Source: Candidatus Rifleibacteriota bacterium
GTDB lineage: Bacteria; Muiribacteriota; Ozemobacteria; Ozemobacterales; Ozemobacteraceae
DNA: 63,449 bases
NCBI GenBank assembly: GCA_012520995.1
Contig: JAAYNI010000088.1
Location: 1 to 63,449 of the forward strand
Direction of reading: 5' to 3'
Shown here: one piece after another, positions 1-6,606 of the stretch
Numbering within the stretch: the stretch's first letter is position 1
Layout: each line of letters begins with the position of its first letter
Made by a program: the position numbers and the translations under genes
The notes under the pieces: model-generated
Told to the model about the DNA's origin: nothing
The model's input: only the letters and a program-made list of their open reading frames with translations
The model's database searches: none

Positions 1-1247
1 ATAGGACAGATTATGCTTAGGAAAAAGCTCCTGTTAAGATTGTTTTTTAGAGTAAACGTGGTCTTGATCTTAAAGGAGGGATCGGGAGAAGCGGTTTCTC
101 CTGAGTTGCCTTCTGCGTTTATATCAAGAGTGTATGTGCCAGGTGGAATGTTAAAATAGAAAGTTTCTATTCTTTGCCCTTCTCTCCACCACTCTTCATT
201 TTTGGAAGTATTACAATAATAAGAAATTTCTCTGGAAAATTTGAGATGTTCTATATTTTCTTCATAAAGAAGATATATTTCATAATATGTCCAAGCGTTG
301 ATTAGTTCAGGAATTTCTATGGACAAAGAATAAGCGCCGTTGCTGTGAAAATAGATTGGTTCTGACAAATAAGATGAAAATGAGCTCTCAGGTACCGTAA
401 ATTGTTTGAAAATATGGCCTTTTTTTTGAATTTTATTGAGCAGGAACCAACTTAAAAAGCATGCTAATAAAGCAGCAATACCTATGGCTTTGAGGATAGG
501 ATTGGATGGCTGACAGGCACCTATTGAGAAATGTGAAGGTTGTAAGGTGCGTATCCCAAAAGCTTTGGAGATTTCTGTATGCTTAATATATTCACCGCAA
601 AAGAATTCCATCTCACTGACGTGCCTCTCAATAGAGTAGATATAAGGCGGGGCTATGGCATCTATGTATTCACTGATATCGCCGGTTTTAGCTTGCCAAG
701 TCATTTCGCCTTCTACATAATCAAGCATGCAATGGCTGTGTTCATATACTATGAAATTCTTGCCACTAAAAAAATTTCCGACAAATATTGATATTGGAGG
801 CTGTAGATATCTCTCTTGAGGAAAAGCATAAGGTAAGTTGCGTGGTGTTTCTTTGGTTTCATGCAGCAAAGTCCATTGGTTATTTTCTAAGCAGAGCCAA
901 GCATAGCCGTGAGTATAAGAATAGAGCAGGTGTTCGGTCCAATTGTAACTGCTGTAGATGTTTTCGCAGCATTCTTTATATTCTGCTATGCCTATAACAA
1001 CATAATCTACGCCGTTCAAAGTGCCTTCTGTTCCTATGGGAATCTTTCTTCTATTCTGAGGGCACATTTTGACAGGAGCAATAGGCTTGAAATTGTCTTT
1101 TGTATCTAAGAGCCAGGAACAATACTGACAAACAACAGTTTCTACTTTCTGACCGCCATATAAGGCGACTGAGCCGCCGCAGTTGGGGCATTGTATAGTT
1201 TTCAGCTTAAATTTACTGCTATATTGCAATTTGTTGTCAGTTATCAT
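1..1247 (-). CDS. DUF4178 zinc-ribbon membrane protein, partial (third paralogue)
   Basis: I translated this frame by hand. It starts at ATG 1247 and stays open to the window edge, so at least 415 codons are present and the C-terminus is missing. The N-terminus has a zinc ribbon (CPNCGG, then CQYCS about 20 residues later). A DUF4178-type segment follows (PIGTEGTLNGVDYVVIG, a WTEHLLYSYTHGYAWL stretch), then one membrane span near residue 265 and a beta-rich outer domain. It matches the gene at 4542-5870 almost domain for domain. It lies 160 bases beyond speD and has its own promoter-like element at 1281-1290, so it may be a separate unit. No strong ribosome site is visible. The function of DUF4178 is unknown. 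Confidence 0.85.
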   Translation of the reverse strand, partial: MITDNKLQYSSKFKLKTIQCPNCGGSVALYGGQKVETVVCQYCSWLLDTKDNFKPIAPVKMCPQNRRKIPIGTEGTLNGVDYVVIGIAEYKECCENIYSSYNWTEHLLYSYTHGYAWLCLENNQWTLLHETKETPRNLPYAFPQERYLQPPISIFVGNFFSGKNFIVYEHSHCMLDYVEGEMTWQAKTGDISEYIDAIAPPYIYSIERHVSEMEFFCGEYIKHTEISKAFGIRTLQPSHFSIGACQPSNPILKAIGIAALLACFLSWFLLNKIQKKGHIFKQFTVPESSFSSYLSEPIYFHSNGAYSLSIEIPELINAWTYYEIYLLYEENIEHLKFSREISYYCNTSKNEEWWREGQRIETFYFNIPPGTYTLDINAEGNSGETASPDPSFKIKTTFTLKNNLNRSFFLSIICP

Positions 1248-1280
1248 AAAAGTATTTCTGACTTTTTTGGTTTTTGTTAA

Positions 1281-1290
1281 ATTATAGCAT
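1281..1290 (-). promoter_or_regulatory. Extended -10 promoter element
   Basis: On the minus strand this reads ATGCTATAAT, a perfect TATAAT preceded by TG one base away. It sits 33 bases before the ATG of the partial DUF4178 gene. No -35 hexamer is visible; the corresponding position is A-rich. The identical decamer precedes the genes at 5870 and 48119. Confidence 0.6.
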
Positions 1291-1410
1291 TAGAGAAAAA
1301 AAGTTTTTTCTATGTGTTTTATCCAAATCCCAGATTCATTGCGGTTGCAGTATCCAGATAACCTGAAGACATTGTTGTTTTGCATAGCATCAGAATAGGT
1401 GTTGCAAATA

Positions 1411-1809
1411 TTATTCAGTGCTTGTGATATCCTTAATATCATTTAAAGAGCGTTTCAGAAATTTTTCGGAAATATCAGAGGGAGAAAATATTTCTTTTAA
1501 AAGCGTATAAGCTTTTTTAGTTTTGTTCGGGTCGCCGCATGAGAATATATCTATTTGAACAGCAGCGTGTTCTGGCCAAGAATGAAGAGTAGCATGGGAT
1601 TCCATCAATAAAACTGCTGCTGTATAGCCTTCAGGTTCAAATTGCCAAGAGCAAATTCCTGTGGCTGTCATTCCGGCTTCAGAGATAACTTCTTTGAGTA
1701 TGCGCTCGCCGGTTTCAGCTTTTTTCAGGTTTTCAAGCTTGCAGCCTTGAAAGTCAGCTATTATATGCAGAGATTTGCTGCTGATTTCTTTTTTGCTCAT
1801 ATTGACCAT
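1411..1809 (-). CDS. speD: S-adenosylmethionine decarboxylase proenzyme (SpeD, prokaryotic class 1b)
   Basis: This enzyme makes decarboxylated AdoMet, the aminopropyl donor for polyamine synthesis. It is a pyruvoyl enzyme that cuts itself at a Glu-Ser bond. The sequence shows the hallmark ESH motif (ESHATLHSWPEH, residues 67-78 counted from the second Met), with Ser68 as the predicted pyruvoyl precursor. A later FSCGD supplies the conserved cysteine. The length of about 130 residues fits the small bacterial class. Two in-frame ATGs exist, at 1809 and 1800. The one at 1800 forms an ATGA overlap with the stop of the upstream aminopropyltransferase-like gene and is slightly preferred. Overlap and order imply co-translation with that gene, which would use the product. 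Confidence 0.92.
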   Translation of the reverse strand: MVNMSKKEISSKSLHIIADFQGCKLENLKKAETGERILKEVISEAGMTATGICSWQFEPEGYTAAVLLMESHATLHSWPEHAAVQIDIFSCGDPNKTKKAYTLLKEIFSPSDISEKFLKRSLNDIKDITSTE

Positions 1810-3338
1810 TTGTTCCAGCCTTTTTCGTAATAAACCTTTATGATATGGGTATCTATAGTGTTGGGTTCTGTTTTTTCATAGGCGATATCCGGAGGAAAGT
1901 CGTTCATGCCTTGCAGAGTCTTGGTGTCCAAATATCTGCCTGGATTTGCAACTTTAATTTGATCCCATTCAAAAGGCACGTTGGAGGCCATAACAAATCC
2001 CCATTCGCCAAAAGATGGAACGTAGGATCTGTAGCCTTCTGCAAAGAGTTTGGGGCGATTTTCGTCTTTTTCGTCAAAAAACAAAGGATTATCTACAGCT
2101 TTGAAAGTATTTAGAATGCACCAGAAGGCTGTTGTGGAATAGACTGGAGAGGTAGCTTGTGTAACTATTTTGCCGCCAGCATTCAGCTTTTTTGATAACA
2201 GCCTGTAAAAAGTCGTGGAATAAAGCCTGCTCAGGCTAATATTGTCAGGGTCGGGAAGGTCTATTATTATGACATCATAAGTGCCTTTGTCATTTTCGAG
2301 ATATTTCCAAGCATCATCATTTACAATCGTGACTTTTGGATTGCTCATAGCTCCTTTGTTAATCAGTTTCATCATAGGGTTGTTCTTTGCGAAATCAGTT
2401 ATAGCCGGATCTATGTCAACTATTTTGATTCTCTCGGTATCGGAAAATTTCAAAACTTCCCTTGCTGCTATTCCATCGCCTCCGCCGATTATAAGAACAT
2501 CTTTTCTGGAATGGGCAGAGCTCATAGCTGGAATAACCAATGCTTCATGGTAACGGTGTTCATCCATGCTGCTGAATTGTATGCTGCCGTTTATATACAT
2601 TCGAAGGTCATTTTTTCCCTTGGTAACCACAACTCTTTGATAAGGAGAATTGGTTGTGTATATGATTTCGTCTTTGTACAGAGTGTCTTCTGTCAGCGAG
2701 GTGATGATATCTGAACGGACGAACAGAACTGTGAGAAGGGCAAGCCCGGCAAGTGCCAAGGCGGTAAGTGGTTTTGGTTCCTCAATTTGTTTTTTAAATA
2801 CCTTGATCACCGAGAGCGCAACCAAAATATTCAGGATACCAAAGAGAAGACTTGTCCTTATTAGTCCTAAGCGAGGAACTAAAACAAGCGGAAACAGCAG
2901 CGAGGCAAAGAGAGCGCCTGCGTAGTCAGCTGTCATCACATTTGATACCGCTGATCTTAGTGTTTCTTTGTCCTTCATTATTCTTATTATCAGGGGCAGT
3001 TCCAAGCCTATGAAGGTGCCAGTGACAACACAAACTAAAACAAGTATAGATGTGTAGTCGCTCAGTTTGGCGAAAGCGAAAAACAGCAGAATAGAACTGA
3101 GTCCGCCAGCTATGCCTGTCATGACTTCCACAAAAGCGAACCAGTCGTATAGGCGCTTTTTGATATAGCGGGAAAGGAAAGAACCAAAACCCATGGATGT
3201 CATAAACATACCCATCACCAGCGAGAACTGGTAAACGGAGTCGCCGACCAGATAGCTTGATACCGTGCCTGCAAGAAGCTCGTAGACCAAGCCGCAGACT
3301 GCTATTATAAAAACTGAGGCTAATAAAAATAATTTCAT
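1797..3338 (-). CDS. speE: Membrane-bound spermidine synthase-like aminopropyltransferase
   Basis: The N-terminal half (about residues 1-210) is a multi-span membrane domain with roughly seven hydrophobic helices. The C-terminal half is a spermidine-synthase fold. Visible family motifs are SSMDEHRYHEALV, LIIGGGDGIAAREVLKF (AdoMet-site glycines), KIVDIDPAITDFAK and VIIIDLPDPDN, which keeps the catalytic-loop aspartates. Soluble SpeE is near 290 residues; the fused membrane domain explains the 513. It would transfer an aminopropyl group from the product of SpeD, encoded immediately downstream with overlap. The acceptor is not known for this membrane class and may be a membrane or exported molecule rather than free putrescine. 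The upstream neighbour is DUF350. Confidence 0.88.
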   Translation of the reverse strand: MKLFLLASVFIIAVCGLVYELLAGTVSSYLVGDSVYQFSLVMGMFMTSMGFGSFLSRYIKKRLYDWFAFVEVMTGIAGGLSSILLFFAFAKLSDYTSILVLVCVVTGTFIGLELPLIIRIMKDKETLRSAVSNVMTADYAGALFASLLFPLVLVPRLGLIRTSLLFGILNILVALSVIKVFKKQIEEPKPLTALALAGLALLTVLFVRSDIITSLTEDTLYKDEIIYTTNSPYQRVVVTKGKNDLRMYINGSIQFSSMDEHRYHEALVIPAMSSAHSRKDVLIIGGGDGIAAREVLKFSDTERIKIVDIDPAITDFAKNNPMMKLINKGAMSNPKVTIVNDDAWKYLENDKGTYDVIIIDLPDPDNISLSRLYSTTFYRLLSKKLNAGGKIVTQATSPVYSTTAFWCILNTFKAVDNPLFFDEKDENRPKLFAEGYRSYVPSFGEWGFVMASNVPFEWDQIKVANPGRYLDTKTLQGMNDFPPDIAYEKTEPNTIDTHIIKVYYEKGWNKWSI

Positions 3339-3391
3339 GACAAAAGCAGTGTCAGAGCAATGAAGAACAATGGTTTAAAATTTGATTTGTT

Positions 3392-3607
3392 TTAGCGAAT
3401 TACAGCAGAAATTATAATAGAAAGACCGATCATGACGGAACCTATTATGATTCCGAGAGAGGTGTTTTGGTCGATTTCTATTTCTTTTCTGATTGAAAAG
3501 GGTGATATTTTGCATATGAGCCAGAAAGCGACCACATACAAAATAAGTCCTATGAAGGCATAAAGGAAAGTAGATATTACTTGAGCTTTGGTGAGATCGA
3601 AATCCAT
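3392..3607 (-). CDS. DUF350 family small membrane protein
   Basis: A 71-residue protein with two clear membrane helices (FLYAFIGLILYVVAFWLIC and LGIIIGSVMIGLSIIISAVI). A charged linker between them contains the DUF350-type segment KEIEIDQNTSLG. I chose ATG 3607 over the longer reading to 3640 because GGAG lies seven bases before it and the family begins at about this point. DUF350 proteins are found beside DUF4178, spermidine-synthase-like and AdoMet decarboxylase genes in many bacteria, which is the arrangement seen here. The biochemical role is unknown. It lies between the small secreted protein and the membrane aminopropyltransferase, all on the same strand. Confidence 0.82.
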   Translation of the reverse strand: MDFDLTKAQVISTFLYAFIGLILYVVAFWLICKISPFSIRKEIEIDQNTSLGIIIGSVMIGLSIIISAVIR

Positions 3608-3649
3608 TGATATACTCCGTATGTTAAATTGAAAAGGCAAATATCATTA

Positions 3650-3823
3650 TCATTTGCCTGGTCTGTAACCTGTTCTAAGAACAACTCCGCCAGCACTTTG
3701 CTCTCTTACGCTTTTTACAGCTGTTGTAGTGCCAAGACCTTCGGGTTTTGCCACGTCAGCGATTGCCGCAGTGATCGTAAGAAAGATAAATATGGCAAAA
3801 AACGTAAATATGGCATTTCTCAA
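3650..3823 (-). CDS. Small secreted protein of the DUF350/SpeE locus (57 aa, TTG start)
   Basis: This short gene was found by reading the gap between its neighbours. It starts at TTG 3823 behind a strong AAGGAG six bases upstream and stops with TGA at 3650-3652. The first 22 residues form a signal peptide (MRNAIFTFFAIFIFLTITAA, then IAD). The mature part of about 35 residues is glycine- and basic-rich and ends in LRTGYRPGK. No domain is recognised. Its position between short DUF4178 and DUF350 corresponds to that of small secreted DUF4247-type proteins in related loci of other phyla, but I cannot claim homology. It could be an exported partner or a substrate of the membrane aminopropyltransferase; that is speculation. 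Confidence 0.72.
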   Translation of the reverse strand: MRNAIFTFFAIFIFLTITAAIADVAKPEGLGTTTAVKSVREQSAGGVVLRTGYRPGK

Positions 3824-3854
3824 GGTGTTTTCTCCTTTCCTTGGAAATACTTTG

Positions 3855-4481
3855 TCAGTATTTCTTAGCGAAATCCTTTATTTCATAAGGGTCGATCCAA
3901 TGACCTTTGAAGAGTTTTATTCCGTCCTCTTCATATTCAATTGTATACATTTCTTTTCGTGTTCCTAAGAGATCCGCGTAATTATAAGTGTCATTTTCCT
4001 CAATTACGAACGGAAGCATTCCTTCACAACCGATCATGGTGCAGGTTCCGAGTTCGGCTACCATGAAGTTTTTTCTGTTCATCAATATTTTCATGCCTAC
4101 TTTCAGATTTTCAAAAGCAGGCAAAGGAGTGGAAGGAAGGGGTTCAGATACTTCTACGGCTATGTCGCCTTCGTCAACGGAAATCCATGAGGCTTTTCCG
4201 TTAGAGCTTATGACATACCACTCGTCCCAAAAACCTCTGCCTTTGTCGTAGGTGTATCTGACTCTTCCTCTTGGAGTAAAGTCCCAGCCTTTGTGGCTGT
4301 ATAAATGGTCTAGTGTGAATATGCTGGGAGTTTCTGTGAGGATAGCCAATTTGCCAATATCTTTCCATGATTCCCCTTCGAGAATGCTGGTGCTTGAGCA
4401 GTAATTGCAGGTTATCATGTGCGGCGATCTGATTTTAAGATGGATCAGTGAGCCGCAAGAGGGGCATGTCAGTTCCAGCAT
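3855..4481 (-). CDS. Short DUF4178 protein with zinc ribbon
   Basis: A 208-residue protein with no membrane span. Residues 1-40 form a zinc ribbon (LTCPSCGSLIHLK, then ITCNYCSS). The rest resembles the DUF4178 unit of the longer paralogues: an LENL-type strand, a KVGMKILMNRKNFMVAELG core and a final strand with YTIEYEEDGIKLFKGHWI. The ATG at 4481 follows AAGGAGG about 11 bases upstream. It sits 60 bases after the long DUF4178 gene and 31 bases before the secreted small protein, so it belongs to the same transcript. It may be a cytoplasmic, non-anchored version of the paralogues. DUF4178 function is unknown. Confidence 0.8.
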   Translation of the reverse strand: MLELTCPSCGSLIHLKIRSPHMITCNYCSSTSILEGESWKDIGKLAILTETPSIFTLDHLYSHKGWDFTPRGRVRYTYDKGRGFWDEWYVISSNGKASWISVDEGDIAVEVSEPLPSTPLPAFENLKVGMKILMNRKNFMVAELGTCTMIGCEGMLPFVIEENDTYNYADLLGTRKEMYTIEYEEDGIKLFKGHWIDPYEIKDFAKKY

Positions 4482-4541
4482 AAGCGTAAGGTTCCTCCTT
4501 GAAAATCATTGAAAAAGTTTTTAATGATAGGGCACATGAGA

Positions 4542-5870
4542 TCAATCATCGTCATACTCTATTACCTGTCCCCATCGTCGGCTGTCAAAGGAGTGTTTGT
4601 ATATGAAATAGGGTGTGGATAGTAGAAAGAGGAAAATCATATATCGGAATAGAAAGTATCCTCTTCTGGCATTTCTTTTTAAAGTTATTGAGCTGTCCAA
4701 GGCGAATTTTGGATCAGGTGTGCTGCTTTCTCCACGATTTCCTTCTGCCATTATTTCAAGAGTATATGTGCCCGGATCAGGGACGTGGAAATAGAGCACT
4801 CCATATTTTTTGCCTTCAGACCAGCTTTCTCCGCCTTCTCTTCCATAGTAATAGGAAATTTCTTTGGAGATGTTCAAATACTCAGATTCTCCGTCTTCGT
4901 CTAGAAGAGCCACTTCATAGTAAGTCCAAGCGTTGCTTAAACCCGGGGTTCTTATGGTTAGTGAATAATAACCGTTGCCGTCAAAATTAATGGGCTCAGA
5001 GACAAAAGAGGAAAAGGATGTGTGAGGTACAGAGAAAAATTTGAGCTCTGTGCCGTCTGTTGAGATCATGAAATAGAGAACAAGGGCTAAAAACGCGGTC
5101 GTTAAACCTGCTATTGAGAAGGCTCTAACCGTGGGATTATCCTTGACGGGCTGATTCGCTCCTATGCCAACCGGTTTTTCGGTTGTAATTCTGAAGGCTT
5201 CGGCAATTTTTGTATGCTCTATATATTCGCCATAAAAAAATTCTATTTCGTTATTTCGTTTTTCAATGGAATAGAGATAGGGAGGATCTATGGCATCTAT
5301 ATACATGCTTGTTTCGCCTACTTTCGCTTCCCAAGTCATTTCACCTGAAACATAAATAAGCCTGCAGAAAGCGTTCTCGTATACTTTGAAAACTTTGTTT
5401 CCTACGTATATAGGAGTTTTTGGATCAATGTAGGCGCCTGAAAAGAAGCTGTCGGAAAGTCTGTCAAAGTCAGGAAGATCTTTTACTTCGCGTAATAAAG
5501 TCCAGTGACCGTTTTCCAAGCAGAGCCAAACGTATCCGTGCGTGTAAGAATAAAGAAGATGTTCAACCCAATAATAGTAACCGTCTTCATCTACTTCTTC
5601 ATACTCGGTTATTCCTATAACAACATAATCTATGCCGTCTAAGGTGCCTTCGGCTCCAATAGGAATGCTGCCATAGGGAATCTTGCCCATTTTGAGAACG
5701 CATATGAGGCTGTTGTCGTTCTTGGTGTCTATTAGTGAAGAACAGTATTGGCAAACGACAGTTTCTACTGAGTGTCCGCCGCGCATGGTAACTGAGCCGC
5801 CGCAGTTTGGACATTGTATCGTTCTCAGCTTGAATTTCCGGGAAGTTGTGAAGGCGGATTGTTTTGCCAT
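4542..5870 (-). CDS. Long DUF4178 protein: zinc ribbon, DUF4178, two membrane spans, outer beta domain
   Basis: The order of parts is: zinc ribbon at residues 15-45 (CPNCGG, CQYCSS), DUF4178 region to about 230, membrane span near 265 (AGLTTAFLALVLYFMIS), a beta-rich domain of about 130 residues that probably faces outward, and a final span (YMIFLFLLSTPYFIY) with a short acidic tail. I start it at ATG 5870 (MAKQSAF); the frame can be read to 5897 only through a TTG, and the paralogue at 1-1247 also begins here. It is the first gene of the DUF4178-DUF350-speE-speD operon and has an extended -10 at 5910-5919. It probably senses or organises something at the membrane, but this is inference. Confidence 0.83.
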   Translation of the reverse strand: MAKQSAFTTSRKFKLRTIQCPNCGGSVTMRGGHSVETVVCQYCSSLIDTKNDNSLICVLKMGKIPYGSIPIGAEGTLDGIDYVVIGITEYEEVDEDGYYYWVEHLLYSYTHGYVWLCLENGHWTLLREVKDLPDFDRLSDSFFSGAYIDPKTPIYVGNKVFKVYENAFCRLIYVSGEMTWEAKVGETSMYIDAIDPPYLYSIEKRNNEIEFFYGEYIEHTKIAEAFRITTEKPVGIGANQPVKDNPTVRAFSIAGLTTAFLALVLYFMISTDGTELKFFSVPHTSFSSFVSEPINFDGNGYYSLTIRTPGLSNAWTYYEVALLDEDGESEYLNISKEISYYYGREGGESWSEGKKYGVLYFHVPDPGTYTLEIMAEGNRGESSTPDPKFALDSSITLKRNARRGYFLFRYMIFLFLLSTPYFIYKHSFDSRRWGQVIEYDDD

Positions 5871-5909
5871 GAAAAAAACCCCGTTGCTTTCTCTCAATTT
5901 CTCACTTTT

Positions 5910-5919
5910 ATTATAGCAT
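5910..5919 (-). promoter_or_regulatory. Extended -10 promoter for the DUF4178/speED operon
   Basis: The minus strand reads ATGCTATAAT, 39 bases before the start codon at 5870. The TG is placed as in extended -10 promoters and no good -35 is present. It is identical to the elements at 1281 and 48161. Confidence 0.6.
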
Positions 5920-5948
5920 TTATTTTTATGGCTGGTTTAAGTTTGTTT

Positions 5949-5975
5949 GACTGAAGGGTTAAACACCCCTCAGTC
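5949..5975 (-). terminator. Hairpin after efp, possible terminator
   Basis: A ten-pair stem (GACTGAGGGG pairing with CCCTTCAGTC through one G-U pair on the minus-strand RNA) with a seven-base loop lies nine bases past the efp stop. The T-run follows on the opposite side, so it is not a textbook terminator for efp. Read on the plus strand it has one mismatch but is followed by GTTTTT. Confidence 0.4.
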
Positions 5976-5984
5976 GTTTTTATA

Positions 5985-6551
5985 TCATTTTTTGGTTCTT
6001 TCCAGATAAACACCGGTTCTTGTGTCGACTTTGATATATTCTCCTGCTTCTATGAACATCGGAACGTTTACGACATGTCCTCCTTCACAGGTTACAGGTT
6101 TTGTCGAGCTGGTTGCTGAGTTGCCTCTTACGTTGGGAGGGGCTTCCTCTACGAGAAGATCCACTGAAGTCGGCATATCAACTGAGATGGGGGTTTTTTC
6201 GTGGAACTTTACGTAAATCTCCATCTGTTCTTTCAAAAACTTTGTTTGATCGCCTAATACTTCCGAGGAAAGAGCAATTTGTTCATAAGTGTTCAAATCC
6301 ATGAAGTGCAGTTGGTCGCCGGAAGCGTATAGAAATTGCATGAGTTTGGTTTCCAGCTGAACGTCTTCAACTTTCTCAGTTGTTGCATACCTTTGCATGA
6401 AGGTGGAGCCGGTTTTAAGGTTTTTTAATTTGGCTTGTGCCATGGCTCTCCAGTTGCCAGGTCTTACAAATTCTATGTCTACGACTTCACACAGTTCATC
6501 ATTAACGAGAACTATAGAGCCTTTGCGTAAATCATTAGCAATTATTGTCAC
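5985..6551 (-). CDS. efp: Translation elongation factor P
   Basis: EF-P rescues ribosomes stalled at polyproline. This protein of 188 residues matches the usual length and has the three-barrel pattern (ANDLRKGSIVLVNDELCEVVDIEFV at the start and EAGEYIKVDTRTGVYLERT at the end). I chose GTG 6551 because AAGGAG sits seven bases before it and the family begins exactly there. The functional loop tip is odd: the usual PGKG (modified Lys) or PGRG (rhamnosylated Arg) is PGNW here, with Asn at the modified position. None of the genes for known EF-P modification enzymes is in the window. It stands alone between the DUF4178 operon and a 600-base gap. Confidence 0.95.
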   Translation of the reverse strand: MTIIANDLRKGSIVLVNDELCEVVDIEFVRPGNWRAMAQAKLKNLKTGSTFMQRYATTEKVEDVQLETKLMQFLYASGDQLHFMDLNTYEQIALSSEVLGDQTKFLKEQMEIYVKFHEKTPISVDMPTSVDLLVEEAPPNVRGNSATSSTKPVTCEGGHVVNVPMFIEAGEYIKVDTRTGVYLERTKK

Positions 6552-6596
6552 AGTTTTACTCCTTAAGTTTGGAAAGTGTCTCAAACAAACAAAAGC

Positions 6597-6606
6597 ATTC
6601 TAGCAT
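6597..6606 (-). promoter_or_regulatory. Extended -10 promoter for efp
   Basis: The minus strand reads ATGCTAGAAT, one base different from the element at 1281, 5910 and 48161, and lies 45 bases before the GTG of efp. No clear -35 is visible. Confidence 0.5.

Follow-up and report, generated by a model that had tools for sequence, protein, structure and literature searches.

A membrane aminopropyltransferase operon in a Riflebacteria genome and its lysine-tipped exported protein: a candidate protein-modifying aminopropylation module

The window analysed here, 63,449 nucleotides (nt) from Candidatus Rifleibacteriota bacterium, is the complete contig C52 of a draft genome (2.84 Mb, 96% complete, 101 contigs), and at its start lies an operon in which a membrane-bound relative of spermidine synthase (mSpeE) and an S-adenosylmethionine (AdoMet) decarboxylase (SpeD) are accompanied by DUF4178 and DUF350 proteins and by a small exported protein. 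Fused aminopropyltransferases with an AdoMet decarboxylase are present in many bacterial genomes and their product is undefined. The small protein and its lysine tip are a new observation on a cluster that has already been published, and we favour, with moderate confidence, the reading that this is a protein-modifying aminopropylation module in which the acceptor for the aminopropyl group that mSpeE transfers is the lysine at the small protein's C-terminus. The features, in order of transcription and with lengths in amino acids (aa) and transmembrane (TM) segments where present, are as follows.

4542-5870, reverse strand: DUF4178 protein 1, 442 aa (PF13785, E 8e-19)
3855-4481, reverse strand: DUF4178 protein 2, 208 aa (PF13785, E 1.6e-13)
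3650-3823, reverse strand: small exported protein (57 aa) with a TTG start codon and no match to a Pfam family
3650-3655, reverse strand: final Lys codon of the small-protein gene with its stop, candidate site of modification, lysine-ending in 76/76 curated homologues
3392-3607, reverse strand: DUF350 protein, 71 aa, two TM segments by hydropathy (PF03994, E 8e-12)
1797-3338, reverse strand: mSpeE, membrane aminopropyltransferase, 513 aa, seven TM segments and a C-terminal aminopropyltransferase domain (E 5.5e-34)
1411-1809, reverse strand: SpeD, class 1b AdoMet decarboxylase, 132 aa (E 1.7e-30)
3-1247, reverse strand: DUF4178 protein 3, C-terminus lost at the contig end (PF13785, E 7.5e-16)

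Successive intergenic gaps from DUF4178 protein 1 to mSpeE are 60, 31, 42 and 53 nt, and 163 nt separate SpeD from DUF4178 protein 3. The initial annotation had described an operon with overlaps and short gaps; the short gaps are there, but only one overlap exists, of 13 nt between mSpeE and SpeD. The operon itself is real. The order DUF4178-small protein-DUF350-mSpeE-SpeD is kept in six relatives of the same family, in five of which a second DUF4178 gene precedes it (the cluster of genome G006 is without DUF4178 protein 2), and among the matches listed the closest named relative is Candidatus Rifleibacterium. A scan of species genomes gave at least 575 relatives, and the best 80 loci, from Proteobacteria, Bacteroidota, Acidobacteriota, Campylobacterota, Elusimicrobiota and others, were analysed; in these the predominant arrangement was DUF4178-small protein-DUF350-mSpeE. 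Since it recurs in the six relatives and in most of the best 80 loci, the gene order is not a product of chance. The third DUF4178 gene does stand at the edge, as had been noted, but it is a lineage-specific extra.

Clusters of MFS-SpdSyn, AdoMet decarboxylase and DUF350 genes were reportedly treated by Li in 2019 (Biochem J 476:2579), together with the idea of some other acceptor. The second CesT/Tir-PspA operon group of Ravi 2024 (PMC11237479) is of the same published cluster type and has an undefined product; a novel lipoprotein was noted in that study, whose main text is silent on a C-terminal lysine. The window operon is the Riflebacteria member of this published cluster, with which it has in common the fusion of seven TM segments to a spermidine synthase, DUF350, DUF4178, an exported small protein or lipoprotein partner and, as is often the case, SpeD. 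It differs from the second group of Ravi in that the PspA-CesT/Tir dyad is not among the genes at window positions 1-6600.

The mSpeE protein scored 597 bits against the NCBIfam model PRK03612.1 (cut-off 472) and was also above the cut-off of NF037959. Its AlphaFold2 (AF2) model (predicted local distance difference test score, pLDDT, 90.5) has seven TM helices, and Foldseek comparison matched the fold to aminopropyltransferases with target TM-scores of 0.72-0.82, the nearest being the agmatine/triamine aminopropyltransferase of Thermus and the thermospermine synthase of plants. The catalytic residues are intact, and GGGDG, the catalytic-loop aspartates D360 and D363 and Q394 are invariant across 44 relatives. 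The fold, the catalytic Asp, GGGDG and the Gln are common to the soluble spermidine, thermospermine and agmatine aminopropyltransferases, from which mSpeE differs in its fusion to seven TM helices and in a C-terminal pocket motif of its own, PSFGEWGF. A canonical spermidine synthase is a soluble protein of about 280 aa, and mSpeE, at 513 aa with seven TM helices, departs from that form. The family is named polyamine aminopropyltransferase in NCBIfam, and polyamine pathways inferred from that database name may be wrong. The neighbouring SpeD scored 95.5 bits against TIGR03330 (cut-off 75.65), and alignment of its ESHATLHSWPE...IFSCG region to the structures 2iii and 1vr7 showed that the pyruvoyl Ser, the catalytic His and the Cys (S63, H68 and C83 in T. 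maritima) are kept. The equivalog score and the SpeE partner favour AdoMet as the substrate. Re-purposing of SpeD as an ornithine or arginine decarboxylase has been described (PMC10407285); this was rejected as the default for the window protein, with its score above the AdoMet decarboxylase equivalog cut-off and with SpeA present in the genome.

The small protein of the window consists of a single TM or signal segment (residues 4-22) followed by the tail SVREQSAGGVVLRTGYRPGK, which ends Gly-Lys (PGK). None of the tail proteins tested had a match in Pfam. In an alignment of the window protein with its relatives every C-terminus was Gly-Lys or His-Lys. A selection blind to the C-terminus was made at 70 loci, in which the open reading frame (ORF) between DUF4178 and mSpeE was picked by position and hydrophobicity only; 66/70 of the picks ended in lysine and 65/70 in [GH]K, against 10.9% and 1.2% of 737 background ORFs with a length of 150 aa or more. 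The four picks without lysine proved to be either a wrong neighbouring frame (L094, L159) or DUF350 itself (L133, L161), and one further pick (L108), which ended in lysine but was in the wrong frame, was replaced by the right frame in the curated set. With corrections and additions this set came to 76 proteins from about 17 lineages with a median pairwise identity of 25% (last two residues excluded), and the terminal lysine is invariant in it; the penultimate residue is His in 40, Gly in 34 and Val in 2, so that [GH]K ends 74/76. At tail positions -2 to -20 lysine makes up at most about 5% each, and arginine is common there. The terminal codon is AAA in 61 cases and AAG in 15, and the stop TAA in 43, TGA in 17 and TAG in 16; because neither the lysine codon nor the stop is fixed, the constraint acts on the protein. 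The idea that the terminal lysine arises incidentally from the ribosome-binding site of the next gene was rejected on the same use of codons and stops, on the varying gaps and on the occurrence of the tail on other genes.

The tip is also found on proteins of other kinds. At three Comamonadaceae loci that are without the small gene, the DUF4178 protein has one TM segment, the second being lost, and ends ...YGGYSSGGGHK. Longer or lipoprotein partners have the C-termini GGK, RGK, SGK, GHK and SHK, and five plasmid clusters beyond the first sample gave RVK, HGK, SHK, SGK and SGK, one of these being the annotated coding sequence WP_193828724. Where mSpeE was unlinked, a DUF4178 gene elsewhere in the genome was followed by that for a lysine-ending protein (six genomes or records). 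An Alteromonas plasmid carries a variant (L175:6107-10431) made up of mSpeE, SpeD, a TelA-like toxic-anion-resistance gene, DUF4178, a 510-aa lipoprotein ending SSGK and DUF350. No locus of an actinobacterial version with a DUF4247 partner was found in the plasmid search.

The initial annotation had proposed an acceptor other than free putrescine, and the content of the genome and of its family supports this. The biosynthetic decarboxylase that it had suggested looking for is present as a single arginine decarboxylase, SpeA (895 bits, cut-off 369), alongside one agmatinase, SpeB (259 bits, cut-off 174), and no OKR-type decarboxylase was found in the genome; there is thus a separate route from arginine through agmatine to putrescine. 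The only PF01564 protein of the genome is mSpeE. The module is inherited in an all-or-none manner in family f1, SpeD and DUF4178 being present in 7/7 genomes with mSpeE and in 0/9 without it, but SpeA, SpeB and a protein of the deoxyhypusine synthase (DHS) family are found in nearly all genomes of both groups. Besides the cluster, genome G006 encodes a homospermidine enzyme that scores 560 bits against a cut-off of 450. Because relatives keep SpeA, SpeB and the DHS-family protein without the module, and G006 has both, the triamine route is independent of SpeD and mSpeE. Three genomes of the same phylum (G022, G024, G028) have a soluble SpeD-SpeE pair, with SpeE of about 285 aa, and lack the DHS-family protein. 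It had been stated in advance that a complete conventional pathway with this SpeE as its only spermidine synthase, together with loss of free spermidine on deletion and no membrane adduct, would speak against the proposal. Half of this is what was found, as the putrescine pathway is present and mSpeE is the sole SpeE, but a separate DHS-like enzyme, present in cluster-free relatives too, keeps it from counting as a refutation. The acceptor of the aminopropyl group is probably not free putrescine. In the window genome the distant DHS-like protein (G000:C18:1793-2767, L081) keeps the active-site lysine region and lies below every NCBIfam cut-off; the DHS-like family of these Riflebacteria may be a homospermidine or agmatine-coupling enzyme of a new kind.

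The chemistry is predicted to be extracytoplasmic. The K/R-rich loops of mSpeE follow helices 2, 4 and 6, and with seven TM helices this places the catalytic domain, by prediction, on the outside. By charge the small proteins are N-terminus-in in 58 cases versus 5; carriers with one TM segment are joined by several partner proteins with a lipobox-like Cys. A flavin amine oxidase gene (PF01593) lies directly after mSpeE in 52 loci (e.g. L173:5942-7558) from most of the phyla sampled, often overlapping the mSpeE stop, and a twin-basic signal resembling those of the twin-arginine translocation (Tat) pathway was found in 38/38 anchorable cases. In the window genome SpeD sits in the slot that the oxidase holds elsewhere.

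It may be envisaged that SpeD decarboxylates AdoMet in the cytosol, that the seven-TM part of mSpeE passes the decarboxylated AdoMet outward and that the catalytic domain, facing the outside of the membrane, loads the aminopropyl group onto the terminal lysine through its side-chain amine. This would give N6-(3-aminopropyl)lysine as the last residue of a tail rich in Gly, Ser, Tyr, Arg and His, and the DUF350 and DUF4178 proteins would probably serve as membrane partners or scaffolds. A fuller scheme, in which export by the seven-TM half and formation of the modified lysine by the outside domain are followed in many phyla by the Tat oxidase making a reactive aldehyde and possibly envelope cross-links, is conceivable, though we hold it to be doubtful. 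The literature search found no report of an aminopropylated lysine or an aminopropylated protein. Deoxyhypusine synthase offers a likeness, as it also adds an aminoalkyl chain to the side-chain amine of a lysine in a single dedicated protein, but it takes an aminobutyl group from spermidine and acts on an internal lysine of eIF5A, whereas here an aminopropyl group from decarboxylated AdoMet and a C-terminal lysine are proposed; the putative product would be one carbon shorter than deoxyhypusine.

A second likeness is to YgiC and YjfC of E. coli, which are peptide-spermidine ligases according to RefSeq and to the citation of Pederick 2023 in PMC12568646. These systems too have DUF350 (in the yjf operon), an exported partner whose R/S/G-rich tail has a fixed C-terminus, and polyamine chemistry on peptides, but they employ an ATP-grasp ligase and a Gly-Gly end where the window cluster has an aminopropyltransferase, a lysine end and no ATP-grasp gene. 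Gly-Gly ends were found on the neighbouring DUF1190 proteins YgiB and YjfM of E. coli and on partners in Rhizobium, Paracoccus, Acinetobacter and Sulfitobacter. The DUF1190 partners are otherwise divergent, and 6/7 end in this way (L169, L168, L197, L198, L200, L201). The tail ends fit their enzymes because a ligase acts on a carboxylate and an aminopropyltransferase on an amine, and the Gly-Gly tails are the putative ligase substrate. Should the lysine be the acceptor, an orphan system would become a defined post-translational modification and would join the peptide-spermidine ligases under one idea, that of polyamines on the tips of exported tails.

A number of points weigh against aminopropylation of the lysine tip. 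The modification itself is something that we only infer, and decarboxylated AdoMet formed in the cytosol would have to get to an active site outside, for which the assignment of the TM part as exporter is a guess; we know of no exporter of decarboxylated AdoMet. Genome G041 yielded no lysine-tipped gene beside DUF4178, and at several other loci the partner was not located. The evidence from the oxidase comes from other phyla, and no PF01593 amine oxidase was found in the window genome. The DHS-like protein is far under every NCBIfam cut-off and its role in making a triamine is inferred, and one of the seven partners in ligase clusters (that of Sphingomonas) ends in Ala and not Gly-Gly.

The initial annotation had left the choice between lipid, wall and the small protein, and of these it is the small protein that the C-terminal lysine favours, nothing having been seen that favours the other two. 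An enzyme acting on a lipid or wall component, in which case the small protein would be structural and its last lysine would mark it for docking to mSpeE, DUF350 or DUF4178, would accord with the membrane anchoring of mSpeE, with PspA, band-7 and lipoprotein genes as neighbours in other clusters and with the published hypothesis, which is compatible with any acceptor. A docking signal, however, would be expected to accept or use other basic residues, and the arginine that is frequent in the tail is never terminal; the Gly-Gly ends of the ligase clusters also argue for the terminus as substrate, and we regard this explanation as unlikely. The terminal lysine calls to mind Braun's lipoprotein, in which such a lysine is functionally essential, and could be a peptidoglycan anchor with the polyamine genes acting in parallel. 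Versions of the partner with a lipobox occur (the window protein, unlike Braun's lipoprotein, has no lipobox Cys) and the sampled lineages are mostly of Gram-negative type, but strict linkage to SpeD and mSpeE over about 17 lineages, co-loss with them, tails that at 25-45 residues are short for reaching from the inner membrane to the wall, and a cluster without an L,D-transpeptidase make an anchor very unlikely.

One could also regard mSpeE as a spermidine (or aminopropylagmatine) synthase tethered to the membrane, which finishes the SpeA-SpeB pathway, as its family name suggests and as might be expected of the sole PF01564 protein of a 96%-complete genome with SpeA and SpeB. Such a role is hard to reconcile with relatives that have no SpeD at all and keep SpeA, SpeB and the DHS-like protein, with the bona fide homospermidine enzyme that G006 has in addition to the cluster and with the absence of the DHS-like protein from the three genomes with soluble SpeE. 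It also leaves the invariant lysine tip unexplained, and fusions of this kind are said, in the work of Li from 2019, to fail to complement an E. coli speE deletion. A tethered synthase is accordingly an improbable explanation of the cluster.

The DUF4178 proteins are themselves of two types. Protein 1 begins with a zinc ribbon, whose cysteines C20, C23, C40 and C43 are invariant in 29 homologues, and continues with the DUF4178 domain, a TM segment (251-269), a beta-sandwich predicted to lie outside, a second TM segment (405-423; both by hydropathy) and an acidic C-terminus, DDD. A cytoplasmic acidic run (FExxRW...DDD; window 4542-4560) ends most proteins of this type, in the window and in relatives. 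Protein 2 has the zinc ribbon and the DUF4178 domain and, by hydropathy, no TM segment. The AF2 model of protein 1 is confident (pLDDT 89.7), and its comparison with the PDB gave no meaningful match from which a function could be taken. A 97%-identical copy of the gene for protein 3 (window 3-1293 in this comparison) ends contig C59 (G000:C59:4339-4994), and both contigs stop within the gene. For this reason C52 and C59 probably both break in a repeat, and the locus may be a duplication or an assembly error. The gene for elongation factor P (EF-P; window 5985-6584) lies immediately upstream of the operon, and the clusters of relatives have other flanking genes in its place, HflC-like ones among them.

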